From: Collinsella sp. BG-O-102
Lineage (GTDB): Bacteria; Actinomycetota; Coriobacteriia; Coriobacteriales; Coriobacteriaceae
Assembly: GCF_023656745.1 (NCBI RefSeq)
Contig: NZ_JAMOKO010000004.1
Coordinates: forward strand, 1 to 64,000
Length of the DNA stretch: 64,000 nucleotides
Direction of reading: 5' to 3'
The position numbers were made by a program, and so were the translations under genes. Positions within the stretch are counted from its first letter, which is position 1. Every line of letters starts with the position of its first letter. Positions 12,111 through 64,000 of the stretch are shown piece by piece. A model generated the notes under the pieces. That model was not told the DNA's origin and did not search any database. It saw only the letters and a list, made by a program, of their open reading frames with translations.

Positions 12111-12791
12111 ATGGAGGCTTACAAGCAAGAGTTCATCAAGTTTATGGTTGAGTCCGACGTTCTTAAGTTCGGCAGCTTTACGCTCAAGAGCGGCCGTCAG
12201 TCCCCGTTCTTTATGAACGCCGGCGCTTACGTGACGGGCTATCAGCTCAAGAAGCTGGGCGAGTATTACGCCCAAGCCATCCACGATAACTTTGGCGACG
12301 ACTTTGATGTGCTGTTTGGACCGGCCTACAAGGGTATTCCGCTGGCCGTCGTGACCGCAATTGCCTACCACGAGCTGTACGGCAAGGAGGTCAAGTACTG
12401 CTGCGACCGCAAGGAGGCCAAGGACCACGGTGCCGATAAGGGCAACCTGCTGGGTTATGAGCCCAAGGACGGCGACCGTGTGGTCATGGTCGAGGACGTT
12501 ACCACCAGCGGCAAGTCCATCGACGAGACCTATCCCAAGGTCAAGGCTGCTGCCGATGTCGAGATCAAGGGCCTGATCGTGTCCCTCAACCGCATGGAGG
12601 TCGGCAAGGGCGGTGTGACCACCGCGCAGAAGGAGATCGAGGCCAAGTACGGTTTCCCCGTCGCGAGCATCGTCTCCATGGCTGAGGTCGTCGAGACCCT
12701 CTACAACCACGAGATCGACGGCAAGGTTGTCATCGACGACGAGCTCAAGACCGCCATCGACGCCTACTACGAGCAGTACGGAGTCAAGTAG
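12111..12791 (+). CDS. pyrE: Orotate phosphoribosyltransferase PyrE
   Basis: PyrE (226 residues) joins orotate to PRPP to give orotidine 5'-phosphate, the fifth step of pyrimidine synthesis. The PRPP-binding motif VVMVEDVTTSGKS is at residues 124-136, with the flexible-loop RKEAKDHG near 100-107 and KYCCDRKEAK before it. Length fits the family. GAGAGGAG precedes the ATG, and a TAAACT box lies near 12070. No other pyr gene is adjacent. A hairpin without a T-run (12795-12816) follows, then a dense run of palindromic repeats. Confidence 0.96.
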   Translation: MEAYKQEFIKFMVESDVLKFGSFTLKSGRQSPFFMNAGAYVTGYQLKKLGEYYAQAIHDNFGDDFDVLFGPAYKGIPLAVVTAIAYHELYGKEVKYCCDRKEAKDHGADKGNLLGYEPKDGDRVVMVEDVTTSGKSIDETYPKVKAAADVEIKGLIVSLNRMEVGKGGVTTAQKEIEAKYGFPVASIVSMAEVVETLYNHEIDGKVVIDDELKTAIDAYYEQYGVK

Positions 12792-12794
12792 GTT

Positions 12795-12816
12795 CCGCCG
12801 TTCTGCCGAACGGCGG
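12795..12816. terminator. Hairpin after pyrE
   Basis: CCGCCGTT (12795-12802) and AACGGCGG (12809-12816) pair exactly around six bases. There is no T-run, so termination is uncertain. Confidence 0.45.
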
Positions 12817-12832
12817 ACCGGTCGACGCTGTG

Positions 12833-12929
12833 CGGGCCGCATTTGGACAATCTGACGTTCAACTTCAAGGGCGCGACCAGAAGGTCAGCGCCCTTTCGTT
12901 TCACGTCACCTTGCCTCAAATGCGACCCG
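12833..12929. repeat. Structured dispersed element, copy 1
   Basis: Outer arms CGGGCCGCATTTG and CAAATGCGACCCG enclose CAATCTGACGTTCAA, an inner hairpin (AAGGGCGC..GCGCCCTT), and TTTCACGTCACCTTGC. The two blocks are nearly identical in copy 2 (31135-31232) and pair with each other through TGACGT/ACGTCA, while the outer and inner stems differ in sequence. Confidence 0.75.
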
Positions 12930-12964
12930 CTCGCTGGCGTTGCCAAAACATCGGCGATGCCGGA

Positions 12965-13022
12965 GTAGTCATTGGGGACGTTCTTGTTTGACTGGTCGTT
13001 TAAGAGCGTCCCCAATGACTAC
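12965..13022. repeat. Head-to-head pair of CATTGGGGAC repeat halves
   Basis: GTAGTCATTGGGGACGTTCTT (12965-12985) and its near-exact complement (13002-13022) flank a 16-base centre. It belongs to the same family as the units at 10177, 10230, 13281 and 36471. Confidence 0.85.
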
Positions 13023-13026
13023 TTAG

Positions 13027-13097
13027 GAATGAGCGTGGATAATCTCCCGTTTTTGGCCCCCGTGTGGGCTCAAAGTGGGAGATTATTCACGCTCGTT
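13027..13097. repeat. Long palindrome around GTGGATAATCTCCC, copy 1
   Basis: GAGCGTGGATAATCTCCC and GGGAGATTATTCACGCTC form an 18-bp arm with one G-T pair. An inner short stem GGCCC/GGGCT sits in the loop. Copy 2 is at 36512-36575 with compensating changes in both stems. Confidence 0.85.
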
Positions 13098-13194
13098 GGA
13101 TAGGTGTCCGAAAATCAACGCTCATTCGGTTGGCGCAGGGGCAAGCTGTTTTCCGCTGTGGTGCCACATGTGAGCCTGGCCTCCTGTGCCAGAT

Positions 13195-13305
13195 TCTAAT
13201 AACGAGTTTACGGAATAAATAGTTATTAGAGCTGAAATGGCCGACCTAATGACGAGAAGTCGTTATTAGGTCGGCCATTGGTCATTGGGGACGTTCTTAA
13301 ATGAC
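13195..13305. repeat. Three adjacent palindromes before the SIS gene
   Basis: TCTAATAAC/GTTATTAGA (13195-13230) is followed by a 20-bp perfect stem with a four-base loop (13236-13279; arm start AATGGCCGACC), then another CATTGGGGAC unit (13281-13305). The second palindrome repeats the ctAATAACga theme of the first. One or more could terminate the minus-strand SIS gene poorly or not at all, since that gene ends at 13305. Confidence 0.75.
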
Positions 13306-13934
13306 TACTTGAGCCCGGGTAGGCGGGTGTAGGGGAATGAGCGCTCTGGGAATTCGGCGCAGCGGGCGTAGTCTTTGGCGAAGTAGCTGCTGTAGAGCGA
13401 ATCGAGTACGTATTGCACGGCGATGTGGCTGGCGAACTGTGTGATGCGATACGTCATGCTCTCGTGATCGCTCACCGTAAGGTAGGCGGCAAAGCCGGGG
13501 TGAATGCGCGCGCAATAAGGCGTGCCGATGACGATGACCGGGGCATGCTGGCTGCTGAGGATCGGCAAGATTTCCTTGAGGTTGGGCGCAAGGCCGCTGT
13601 AGGAGATAACGATCGCCGCGCGGTCTGAATCCGAGGTAAGCGCCGTGCGCACCTGTGCCTCGATGTTGCCGTAGCATGTGGCGCTCTTGCCGACCGAGAG
13701 CAGGCGGTCGCGGAACATTCCCGCTGGATAGAGGTTGTGAGAGCCCGTGTAGATGTCGACCTGTCGGGCGTTCGCGATGAGCTTGGCGGCGTGGTCAAGC
13801 TGCGTGGGGTCGAGCAGCTCCTGCGTTTCGGCCAGCGTGGTCTGGTAGAGCCCCTCCATGCGCTCCATAACCTGCGCAGGCGATACTCGGCTTATCGACC
13901 CGCGATGCAAAGGAGATGCTCGCCCCACGAACAC
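13305..13934 (-). CDS. RpiR-type SIS-domain protein lacking its HTH domain
   Basis: The readable 209 residues contain the SIS sugar-phosphate-binding domain of RpiR-family regulators (ARQVDIYTGSHNLYPAGMF near 56, AAIVISYSGLAPNLKEILPI near 106). RpiR proteins normally carry about 80 residues of helix-turn-helix first; here the upstream DNA instead holds the crr promoter, so the 5' end is missing. The start is uncertain: GTG 13934 is the earliest, and translation may begin at the methionines in VMERMEG. It lies divergent to crr, where a sugar-phosphate-sensing repressor would be expected. It is probably a decayed regulator, possibly still able to bind ligand. Confidence 0.6.
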   Translation of the reverse strand: MFVGRASPLHRGSISRVSPAQVMERMEGLYQTTLAETQELLDPTQLDHAAKLIANARQVDIYTGSHNLYPAGMFRDRLLSVGKSATCYGNIEAQVRTALTSDSDRAAIVISYSGLAPNLKEILPILSSQHAPVIVIGTPYCARIHPGFAAYLTVSDHESMTYRITQFASHIAVQYVLDSLYSSYFAKDYARCAEFPERSFPYTRLPGLK

Positions 13935-36036: not shown

Positions 36037-36453
36037 ATGGCCGAGGACAATAGGAACAAACCGCTGTACATGATCAGCGTGGCGGCCGAGCTGACCGGCA
36101 TGCACCCGCAGACTCTGCGCGTCTACGAGTCCAAGGGCCTGGTGAATCCTCAGCGCTCGGGCGGTAACACGCGCCTGTATTCGCGTGCCGATATCGAGCG
36201 TCTGGAACTCATCAACCAACTGACCGACGAGGGCATCAACCTTGCCGGCGTGGTGCGCATCCTCGATATGAAGGAGCGTTCCGAGGAGCGCGAGCGCGAG
36301 AACGAGAAGCTCCGCGCTCGCGTGCGCCAGCTCGAGGACGAGCTGCACGAGTATAAGATGCAGAAGAAGATCACCGCCCTGGCCCCGCGCGACGGCTCGG
36401 TCAACCCCGAGCAAGTCATGCGCAAGCTGCTAGGTACGGGTAGCGACCTATAG
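36037..36453 (+). CDS. hspR: Heat-shock repressor HspR (MerR family)
   Basis: HspR (138 residues) has a MerR-type winged helix (MISVAAELTGMHPQTLRVYE, SGGNTRLYSRADIERL), the INLAGVVRILDM segment and a C-terminal coiled coil (RERENEKLRARVRQLEDEL). In Streptomyces and other actinobacteria it represses dnaK and clpB with DnaK as corepressor. Its place at the end of the dnaK operon, and the shared promoter motif before dnaK and clpB, fit this model. Confidence 0.94.
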   Translation: MAEDNRNKPLYMISVAAELTGMHPQTLRVYESKGLVNPQRSGGNTRLYSRADIERLELINQLTDEGINLAGVVRILDMKERSEERERENEKLRARVRQLEDELHEYKMQKKITALAPRDGSVNPEQVMRKLLGTGSDL

Positions 36454-36470
36454 CTCCGCCGACGCTGCCG

Positions 36471-36503
36471 GGCACTCATTGGGGACAGACTTAAATGAGT
36501 GCC
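36471..36503. repeat. CATTGGGGAC-family palindrome
   Basis: GGCACTCATT and AATGAGTGCC enclose GGGGACAGACTTA. The outer arm differs from the units at 10177, 10230 and 13281 but stays complementary. Confidence 0.85.
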
Positions 36504-36511
36504 CGCAGAAT

Positions 36512-36575
36512 GAGAGTGGATAATCTCCCGTTTTTGGCCTGTTTGCAGGCTCAAAGTGGGAGATTATCCACTCTC
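36512..36575. repeat. Long palindrome around GTGGATAATCTCCC, copy 2
   Basis: GAGAGTGGATAATCTCCC and GGGAGATTATCCACTCTC are exact complements with inner stem GCCTG/CAGGC. Compared with copy 1 (13027-13097), changes in the outer arm (CG to AT) and the inner stem are compensated. Confidence 0.88.
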
Positions 36576-36739
36576 GTCATTTCGGCGTCTAAGTCTGCCC
36601 CCGGCACCCAACTCGTTCTTTGCTTTACCTAGATAAAGTGAACGTGCAGATTCGTAACCCACTCGCAACCGTTCTATGGCACGATATTGAACGAATGTAT
36701 GCTATGCGCCCAAATCTTTTGGGCAGAGTGGGAGACAGT

Positions 36740-39215: not shown

Positions 39216-39223
39216 TGTCGAAA

Positions 39224-39262
39224 CCCACCACATTGGGGTCAGGCACCTTTGTGGTGGTGGGG
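39224..39262. repeat. GGGACAG-core palindromic repeat, copy B (inverted)
   Basis: CCACCACA..GGGGTCAGGCACC..TTTGTGGTGG matches the complement of copy A at 1490, with a T in the core. Confidence 0.8.
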
Positions 39263-39311
39263 GTGAGCTCAATGTCGGTGTGCACGTTGAGCGACATTCC
39301 AATAAGCGCCT

Positions 39312-39980: not shown

Positions 39981-40090
39981 ATGCGCTCCTCGAGACAAAG
40001 AGCTGTTGAGGATAGGCAGAAATGGATATGTTCAGAGAACAATTCAAGTTTAATCTCATGGCGTGAGATGGTCGACCGTTAGCGTCGAAA

Positions 40091-40125
40091 ACCACCACAA
40101 AGGTGCCTGTCCCCTTTGTGGTGGT
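40091..40125. repeat. GGGACAG-core palindromic repeat, copy C
   Basis: ACCACCACAAAG and CTTTGTGGTGGT enclose GTGCCTGTCCC, with the same orientation as copy A. Confidence 0.88.
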
Positions 40126-40144
40126 GGGGAGCGCGCGGCTTCTT

Positions 40145-40886: not shown

Positions 40887-40894
40887 AGACCGCG

Positions 40895-40929
40895 ACCACC
40901 ACAAAGGTGTCTGTCCCCTTTGTGGTGGT
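40895..40929. repeat. GGGACAG-core palindromic repeat, copy D
   Basis: ACCACCACAAAG and CTTTGTGGTGGT enclose GTGTCTGTCCC, 800 bases from copy C and in the same orientation. Confidence 0.88.
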
Positions 40930-40954
40930 TTGCATGTCGTGGGAACACTCAGAA

Positions 40955-57829: not shown

Positions 57830-58372
57830 CTACATGCGCGGAGGAGTTTTTCGGGCGCATCGCCTGCGTTCGCGTCGCAATCTCGGCGGCGCGGTGCGGT
57901 CCGCGGATTCCATCGTATCGCCCGCGGCACCCCTTACCGACGATTGAGGCGAGTCTGCATTTCGCGGCGCGACGTCCACCTGGCGGACGATATCCGTTCG
58001 CGACACGTGGCCGTCCCGGTCGCAATAGCGTATGCGCACCGGGTTGCCGAGATGGGCCTGCGACCCCTTCTCCTGATGCGAGCGCGCGAGACGGGTGAGC
58101 AGCGGCGCGAGCACCTGCTCGACCGTCTCCTCCCGATACCACGCCGCCACGGGCAACCCGTTCACGTCAAACCCGTACGTTCGCCATGCCATTCGCCTCG
58201 CCGCCTTCGCCGAACGAAACCGCGTATCCAGACCGCCGGTCCCCCACCCAGCACTTCGACGAGCCTTCGCGCTCACTTCTGCGGTCGGGATGCGCCCGCG
58301 AGGCGCTCGGCAGGCAGCGCCATTTCCGCTCGCTGTGTCGAGCGCGAGTGTCGAGAAGTCGCCATATGCCAC
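57830..58372 (-). pseudogene. Decayed gene remnant, possibly P-loop kinase-like
   Basis: A minus-strand reading of 180 codons lacks a ribosome site and normal composition. One stretch (YGFDVNGLPVAAWYREETVE followed by QVLAPLLTRLARSHQEKG) recalls the N-terminus of P-loop sugar/nucleoside kinases, but no Walker A follows. Its first codons lie in the 232-bp duplicated block. It is probably a remnant of a gene once divergent from the LevR-type gene whose remnant is at 58486. Confidence 0.35.
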
Positions 58373-58506
58373 TCAGATGTAGCATGGAGTGCCGAAGTGC
58401 ACGCGCCCGTGACGAAACACTGGCGCCAACCCGTTCCGCGCACCACCCCGCCCGTAAGGTGTGTGGCGAAAGGAGGACCAGCCGCATGAACATCCCCGAG
58501 ACACAG
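58275..58506. repeat. Duplicated block, left copy
   Basis: About 232 bp match 63111-63343 at most positions, including a GTCGAGAAGTCGCCATATGC segment, the ribosome site AAAGGAGGACCAGCC and the first seven codons of the LevR-type gene. Confidence 0.85.
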
Positions 58507-58676
58507 AGCCTACCTCGATCGCATTCCGCACGAGCTTCTCTGACATTTCCGCCCATTACCACGTGGAGGTCCCCGTCGCGGAGATCGCCTACGCATACGA
58601 CTACATCAATTCCCGGCATGCCCCGCGCAGGCAGGCCACGCTGAACGACGGGTCCGCGGCCCGGCAGGACGAATGA
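58486..58676 (+). pseudogene. Remnant of a LevR-type activator gene
   Basis: Starting at ATG 58486 the first seven codons (MNIPETQ) and a short following stretch match the intact gene at 63323 apart from an 11-base gap. The sequence then jumps, in another frame, to ISAHYHVEVPVAEIAYAYDY, which resembles the end of a PRD domain, and stops at 58676. So an internal deletion removed the AAA+ and most regulatory domains. Confidence 0.7.
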
Positions 58677-62774: not shown

Positions 62775-63110
62775 GCCAGTGAACCTCGTCGCCACAGCGA
62801 CTCCCCCAGCAAAACACGCGAACAACGGGTCCGGCCGCATTCCGGCGACCGGACTCGTCCTGTGCCCTGATGGCACATGGCCCCGGGCTGCCGACAGCGA
62901 GGCGGCCTTAGGGGCCTCGCCTACAGATTCCTGAGTGCGTCGACGAGGGAGACCTTGCCCGCGGTGACCTCGTCGGCCTGCTTGATGACCTTTGCGGGCA
63001 CGACGGCCACCACAGCGCCGGCGGCAGAGTCGATTCGAGCGATGTGGTCAGAGACGGAGCGAACGGCGAGCCGCTTGCCGACAGGGAGGCAGTCAAAGGT
63101 GGCAAAGCGC
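62775..63110. other. Spacer after GH32 with a hairpin and a decayed reading
   Basis: GCGAGGC/GCCTCGC (near 62897-62921) forms a hairpin. The remainder is covered by the uncertain minus-strand reading below. I see no other gene. Confidence 0.5.
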
Positions 63111-63208
63111 ACTCCTACGGTTGGGATACGCCCGTGAGGCGCTCGGCGGACAGCGCTGTTGCCGCTCGCTGTGTCGAGCGCAGGTGTCGAGAAGTCGCCA
63201 TATGCCAC
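62921..63208 (-). pseudogene. Unidentified short minus-strand reading, probably a remnant
   Basis: A 95-codon reading starts MAYGDFST in the duplicated block and continues with a different, protein-like sequence (ARIDSAAGAVVAVVPAKVIK, ending SLVDALRNL). No ribosome site precedes it and I recognise no family. It may be the tail of a deleted gene joined to the duplicated promoter block. Confidence 0.35.
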
Positions 63209-63343
63209 TACAGATGTATCATGGAGTGCCGAAGTTCACGTGCCCGTGACAAAACGCGGGCGCCAACCCGTCCCGAGCACCACCCCGCCCGTAAGGTGTG
63301 GGACGAAAGGAGGACCAGCCGCATGAACATCCCCGAGACACAG
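63111..63343. repeat. Duplicated block, right copy
   Basis: This matches 58275-58506 and carries the upstream region, ribosome site and first codons of the intact LevR-type gene. A TATCAT box lies near 63217; the left copy has TAGCAT there. Confidence 0.85.
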
Positions 63344-64000
63344 AAAGACCTGCTTGCCTACCTCGATCGCATCACGCGCGAGCTTGGCAGCACGCGGGGC
63401 GGGCGCATCCAGAACCGTCTCGACCACTTCACCACGGCATCTATAACCGACTCGCTCGCCATCTCGCGCAGCCTGGCAAGTCAGTATCTCAACGAGCTCG
63501 TGCGCGCTGGCCTCGTGGTGAAAGCAGGGGCACGACCGGTGTGCTACTTCCACCGCCGCTCCCTCGAACGCTTCTTCCAGTCTCGCATTGAGCGTAGCAC
63601 CTACCCTTCGGTCGAGCAGCTCTTCGCCACGCTCGGAAACGGCGAGCGACTCGACTTCGACCGCGCAATCGGTCACGAGCTGAGCCTTGCGCCCTGCATC
63701 AGCCAGCTCTGCGCCGCGCTCAAGTACCCGCCAGCTGGCCTGCCCATCCTGCTCTGTGGCGCCTCGGGAACCGGCAAGGGTCTACTCGCCGAACTTGCCC
63801 TCGAATACGGCAAGAACGTCGGCGTCCTGCAGCAGGAAGCCAAGCTTGTGAGCATCGACTGCTCGCATTACGCAGACGATGCCCGCGCGCTCACTCACGA
63901 CCTGTGCGCAGATGGCGGGCCTGCAGATCGGGCGAGCGGCGGCATCGTTTATCTCAAGGACGTCGACGCCCTCTCACCCGCTGCCCAGGACGCGCTCTTG
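63323..64000 (+). CDS. LevR-type sigma-54 activator with PTS-regulated domains (partial)
   Basis: The first 226 residues are in the window and the gene runs off the end. They contain an N-terminal winged-helix region (ASITDSLAISRSLASQYLNE) and the start of an AAA+ sigma-54 interaction domain with Walker A CGASGTGKGLLAE (about 150-162) and GIVYLKDVDALSP, a Walker-B-like segment. LevR proteins also carry EIIA/EIIB-like and PRD domains further on, so PTS phosphorylation adjusts activity. It follows the lev-like operon, which it probably activates. AAAGGAGG precedes the ATG. Confidence 0.88.
   Translation, partial: MNIPETQKDLLAYLDRITRELGSTRGGRIQNRLDHFTTASITDSLAISRSLASQYLNELVRAGLVVKAGARPVCYFHRRSLERFFQSRIERSTYPSVEQLFATLGNGERLDFDRAIGHELSLAPCISQLCAALKYPPAGLPILLCGASGTGKGLLAELALEYGKNVGVLQQEAKLVSIDCSHYADDARALTHDLCADGGPADRASGGIVYLKDVDALSPAAQDALL

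Follow-up and report, generated by a model that had tools for sequence, protein, structure and literature searches.

The closest described systems are REPs and REPINs with RAYT (TnpA-REP), which are short dispersed hairpins, solo or in inverted doublets, that flank a Y1 HuH transposase gene, and BIMEs, in which several repeat types form a strain-variable mosaic within one spacer. Inverted REP doublets, RAYT-flanking REPs, hybrid BIMEs and complementary stem changes have already been described (PMC2817692, PMC3733652, PMC6006769), and the hybrid BIMEs can contain the REPs of two RAYTs (PMC2817692). The name Collinsella has no occurrence in the text available for these three papers. A survey of structured RNAs in the human microbiome reported 250 palindromic candidates, some of which are possibly REPs, and the one Collinsella candidate named in its main text, to which the comparison refers, is located upstream of L7/L12 (PMC8040213). 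The repeats analyzed here are of this known kind, a REP/BIME mosaic, in a lineage for which no description of REP or palindromic repeats was found in the titles and listed abstracts of the open-access papers searched, and the one unexpected result is the polarity of the longer repeat.

The window, a 64,000-nucleotide stretch of DNA, is contig C34 of a 2.27-Mb genome and contains two real composite loci, at 12965–13097 and 36470–36577, in each of which a short GGGGAC hairpin, A, is followed by a long hairpin, B. The coordinates and sequences given in the initial annotation were borne out at both loci when the letters were re-read, as was the statement that the long palindrome follows the short one within about ten bases; a gap of 4–10 nt separates the A hairpin from the 14+14 nt GTGGATAATCTCCC palindrome. 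The CATTGGGGAC palindrome that had been assigned to both loci is not one and the same structure, being an inverted doublet at 12965–13022 and a single hairpin at 36470–36504.

The solo A hairpin at 36470–36504 (plus strand, from sequence and folding) has the stem GGGCACTCATT/AAATGAGTGCCC and the loop GGGGACAGACTT, in which GGGGAC is located, and its core matches the hairpins beside a RAYT gene at G000:C44. The B hairpin at 36509–36577 (plus strand, from sequence, genome copies, covariance model and folding) reads GTGGATAATCTCCC...GGGAGATTATCCAC with an outer pair of the A-T type; it is identical in G030 and G034 and one base short in the orthologous spacer of G019. At the other locus, the REPIN-like inverted doublet GTAGTCATTGGGGAC...GTCCCCAATGACTAC (12965–13022, plus strand, from sequence and folding) precedes a B hairpin with an outer pair of the C-G type (13028–13097, plus strand, from the same four lines of evidence as the B copy above). 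The folding z-scores were −10.5 for 36466–36580 and −10.2 for 13027–13098. Beyond this B copy lie the C unit GAGCGTTGATTTTCGGAC (13106–13123, minus strand, from the genome search), an accessory half-repeat with the GAGCGTGGAT core common to the B arms, and a second A hairpin (13281–13305, plus strand, from spacer comparison), which is a direct repeat of the first. The C unit has 11 matches in the genome, nine of them beside a B copy. Upstream of A at 12792–12960 (plus strand, from repeat matches, spacer comparison and fold) is the D cassette, a strongly folded repeat of about 150–170 nt with a very stable fold of −95 kcal/mol, which includes a hairpin followed by a T-rich stretch. It is abundant, with dozens of matches across Collinsella genomes, its stems differ between orthologous spacers with pairing kept, and it has no Rfam match at the gathering level. 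A comparison of L136 (G000:C3) with 12845–13022 of the window shows an IS200-type element inside a D cassette copy, just ahead of an A doublet. The insertions at L159 and L183/L184, whose positions within or next to the D cassette (ATATGACCCAATCCGCTGTCAAGAGCC...) are similar, are likely to be a transposon targeting these repeats.

The A core was found at 48 places in its own genome at up to 3 mismatches, and none of the 44 A elements that were placed lies inside a called gene; A is thus a dispersed intergenic hairpin of tens of copies. The GGGAC loop is constant and the stem is variable with pairing kept, as in the REPs of Stenotrophomonas, the stem changes of which were described as "suggesting selection for complementary mutations" (PMC2817692). 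When the arms of A were shuffled, at least 6 pairs were formed in a mean of 39.6 and a maximum of 49 contexts, compared with 69 of the 99 real ones, which is weak evidence since there are few stem types. A differs from classical REPs, which have a 5' GTAG/GTGG foot and a loop of 2–5 nt (PMC6006769), in that its conserved block is GGGAC, located in the loop or adjacent to it; the sequence of the doublets is GTAGTCATT...AATGACTAC, but the solo form at 36470 does not begin with GTAG.

A search of the genome with PF01797 gave five genes, two of the IS200 type and three RAYT-like with a C-terminal extension, the latter scoring 40–60 bits against NCBIfam REP_Tyr_transpos, under its cut-off of 80. 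The C44-type RAYT was examined in ten genomes, and a GGGACAGAC-type core was present downstream of it in all ten and upstream in nine, the upstream flank of the tenth locus holding other DNA; A therefore flanks the RAYT gene on both sides at nine of the ten loci. RAYT types at other loci are accompanied by their own hairpins, which likewise have GGGAC in the loop and differ in the stem, and one type has none. Six loci (L133, L203, L207, L219, L220 and L221) carry different RAYT types, partly at apparently the same chromosomal locus, each with its own GGGAC-loop hairpin of distinct stem. The type without flanking GGGAC hairpins, which is RAYT-like and possibly domesticated (L134, L141, L218 and L222), has only a GGCCGAA...TTCGGCC hairpin downstream. 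A and B are also present in genomes where the C44-type RAYT was not seen. A is accordingly classed as REP-like, occurring singly or as inverted doublets and resembling the elements on which resident RAYT/TnpA-REP single-strand nucleases act. The known range of REP/RAYT/BIME systems would thereby come to include an actinobacterium of the gut, with a REP type whose loop is conserved and whose stem varies, and with several RAYT types having hairpins of their own.

About 10 copies of B are present in its own genome. In the genome collection, 70 stretches contain the exact B arms, and every one of them is from Collinsella, mostly from C. aerofaciens; both the copy number and this restriction to one genus show that the palindrome did not arise by chance. 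Because these loci were selected by exact arms, arm conservation is inflated in the alignment built on them. A covariance model built from 42 sequences had matches in 23 of 43 Collinsella genomes and none in the other 20; 21 genomes had 10–38 matches each, corresponding to about 5–19 hairpins as most hairpins are counted on both strands, and two further genomes had only one or two. The 21 genomes with many matches also contain two types of A core, which are additionally present in G032 (72% complete, A only, no B match), a shared range that may simply be that of one clade. No B copy was found in the flanks of 25 RAYT loci (two of which overlap), so that no transposase is linked to B and B is not classed as a REP. 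A known Rfam RNA was rejected because no match reached the gathering threshold: the window yielded one tRNA only, and the repeats gave just weak matches to miRNA models, far below gathering. A phage or plasmid origin was also rejected, as no phage match was obtained and the sole match in the plasmid collection is to a Collinsella replicon of 900 kb that carries a diverged copy of B.

For the analysis of sites, pairing and polarity, 117 distinct B contexts with 60 nt on both sides were used, which came from 231 matches; a separate earlier count gave 92 contexts with 90 nt on both sides from 133 regex matches. The B regions were drawn from the best matches listed, whereby diverged copies are under-represented. 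Since the D cassette and A are repeats too, clustering by near flanks merged different B sites, and the sites were grouped by flanks 380–1300 nt away. The largest group was divided into four communities by modularity, and the resulting number of 23 sites is therefore partly a judgement. At 20 of these 23 sites B lies downstream of a gene reading into it, and the best reading of B is a longer and rarer companion hairpin that follows genes, in most cases with an A or some other repeat on its 5' side and frequently with the half-repeat C on its 3' side.

The initial annotation had proposed a comparison of orthologous spacers between strains, and the strains do differ in A and B at both loci. For the spacer at 36454–36613, with flanks 92–100% identical, 18 genomes were resolved (for 3 more loci the downstream side only, and for 9 more distant loci the upstream gene only). 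The A and B of this genome are present in G000, G030, G034 and G019; G012 has a different B, G031 has a different doublet, and the remaining 12 of the 18 have D plus A or longer mosaics, one of them with an inserted element. Among the spacers listed for 13.0 kb, G031 has a single A and no B in place of the A-B-C-A order seen here, the junction falling within the direct repeat of A, whereas G033 has retained A and the end with C but has no B hairpin. Between orthologous spacers, A, B and other modules are thus gained, lost or exchanged, and B-bearing segments are gained and lost between repeats, where insertion and deletion look alike in this unrooted comparison. Several modules per spacer in a mosaic order that varies between strains correspond to a BIME. 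As regards evenly spaced REPs in alternating orientation, A does form inverted doublets, but A and B together do not make up such an array. Differences from BIMEs are that B is longer, rarer and oriented with transcription, and that the mosaic includes the structured D cassette.

The inner arm was used to orient B, the side with GTTTTTGGC being taken as 5' and ties being settled by fold energy, and genes were called using a codon-usage script, the gene context requiring a flank of at least 500 nt. Relative to tandem genes, B has the same orientation at 13 of the 23 sites and the opposite orientation at none, the other sites being convergent (7) or divergent (3); a two-sided sign test on 13:0 gives about 0.0002. 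Counted by tandem copies, 52 of 56 have the same orientation and 4 the opposite one. A first grouping into 42 groups by right flank gave 14 tandem-same, 4 opposite, 13 convergent, 4 divergent and 7 unassigned. As a control, the same script was applied to 44 A elements, of which 13 had the same and 10 the opposite orientation (9 and 6 for the solo form), adjacent copies being non-independent in this count. The idea that these repeats are polarized in general was rejected, as A is unpolarized.

In the B orientation, the mismatched cells comprise 407 of G-T compared with 70 of A-C, and 85 compared with 29 site-by-pair cells when the two orientation-defining pairs are removed, which is the asymmetry expected if one strand folds; this asymmetry and the polarity rest on one shared orientation call. 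In combination, the two measures suggest that it is B rather than A whose folding in the transcript is the reason for its retention. Because B is oriented with transcription and A is not, A and B probably do different things, and this contrast provides a within-genome control for separating the DNA-level spread of repeats from their RNA-level use.

We consider it probable that A and B together make up a BIME-like mosaic, built from non-coding hairpin repeats that are dispersed in genomes of the Collinsella aerofaciens group. In this mosaic A is of the REP type, and B probably forms a 3'-UTR structure by folding on the transcribed strand. A would be moved by the resident RAYT, and recombination between direct A copies, or A-bounded transfer, may add or remove a B-bearing segment. 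B would then be retained as a hairpin through folding on the transcribed strand, possibly for 3'-end protection or as a pause without a U-tract, and template switching may perfect its arms to some extent. Several observations count against this explanation: none of the 25 RAYT loci shows B in its flanks, A and B are present in genomes where the C44-type RAYT was not seen, the solo A core appears to lack the 5' GTAG/GTGG foot of classical REPs, B lacks a U-tract, at 13.0 kb the gene is separated from B by a strong D hairpin so that B may be little transcribed there, and the polarity depends on an orientation by the inner arm, on sites split partly by judgement, and on tandem copies of which 4 in 56 are opposite. 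A bolder proposal, which we regard as possible and hold only tentatively, is that B is a dispersed, strand-polar 3'-UTR RNA element, that is, a hairpin cargo spread among the gene ends of the C. aerofaciens group in REP mosaics and kept by transcript selection for mRNA 3'-end protection or processing. If this is true, a repeat that travelled along with REPs now serves genes as a portable 3' end with a regulatory role.

The changes between the two B copies in the window had been described as compensated in each case. This holds for two pairs, the outer C-G/A-T (alignment columns 8/67) and the inner C-G/T-A (columns 35/42), which are changed on both sides and still paired, but not for columns 12/63, where a change on one side gives a G-T wobble versus G-C, or for columns 36/41, which are paired in just one copy. 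Over 42 copies, 92% of the cells pair, and 32 cells with a two-sided change were obtained, compared with a shuffled mean of 19.9 (reached in 0 of 500 shuffles), an excess that relatedness alone can give; the pairs that show a two-sided change are unremarkable in number (116 of 500 shuffles). Within orthologous sites, based on 111 of the 117 contexts (56-nt copies only), 15 site-by-pair cells are two-sided and paired and 50 are one-sided and paired, compared with 50 that are only broken and a further 18 that are broken in part. When the partner was slid by 1 or 2, the corresponding values were 1–6 two-sided, 10–19 one-sided and 65–91 broken, where the slid controls cover 26 pairs and the real pairing 30. 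The excess of paired changes over the slid controls indicates that the pairing of B is kept beyond chance, albeit loosely, with many broken pairs, and mostly in the inner stem. That broken pairs are as frequent as one-sided paired changes is a further point against the BIME-like mosaic with a folded B.

Template-switch correction of quasi-palindromes is a known process, and the B copies could in principle be neutral palindromes in which replication has produced the paired changes in this way, with their placement reflecting the tolerance of intergenic DNA. The numerous uncompensated changes would fit such an origin, as would two-sided single-pair changes between orthologues, for example at one site with A-T in 9 copies and C-G in 1. 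It predicts neither the large excess of G-T over A-C on one strand nor the 13:0 orientation with transcription, and we regard it as unlikely.

The initial annotation further supposed that the two units probably move or function together, which stands as a tendency and fails as a fixed unit. Among the best matches listed, 54 of 117 B copies and 14 of 23 sites have an A-type motif at a distance of up to 60 nt on the 5' side; for the 3' side, the corresponding values are 19 of 117 copies and 7 of 23 sites. The background, 366 of 6914 intergenic 60-nt windows (5.3%), was obtained from the window away from the two composites, with a broad list of A-type motifs that includes other REP types. Three of the 10 B copies in the own genome have a CATTGGGGAC-type A on the 5' side. 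A often occurs without B, and B also occurs without A. The pairing of A with B is thus common but not obligatory. Uncompensated arm changes together with a lack of joint occurrence had been named as what would speak against the annotation, and each was found in part, as uncompensated changes are about as common as compensated ones and joint occurrence is frequent without being constant. The joint occurrence above background and the recurrence of one A-B junction, CCCGCAGAATGAGA, in 3 orthology groups would also be expected if A and B were one fixed composite mobile element, a MITE or REPIN with two hairpins that inserts as a unit. This is improbable, since 9 of 23 sites have B without A, most A cores are without B (48 A places and 10 B copies in the own genome), several different A-B junctions exist, and neither a target-site duplication nor a constant outer end was noticed in an unsystematic look. 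An intrinsic terminator repeat, to which the very stable stem and the position downstream of genes reading into B would be suited, is very improbable and was rejected, because no T-run follows the stem and the terminator scan of 36400–36700 and 12780–13330 was empty.

Two other groups of repeats were observed in the window. Another hairpin family, ACCACCACAAAGGTGCCTGTCCCCTTTGTGGTGGT, with GGGGACAGG on the other strand in the loop, is located at 1496–1545, 39222–39271, 40089–40138 and 40893–40942. Two adjoining direct repeats of 103 and 134 nt, which are 87% and 93% identical, respectively, occur at 58271–58507 and 63107–63344, about 4.8 kb apart.
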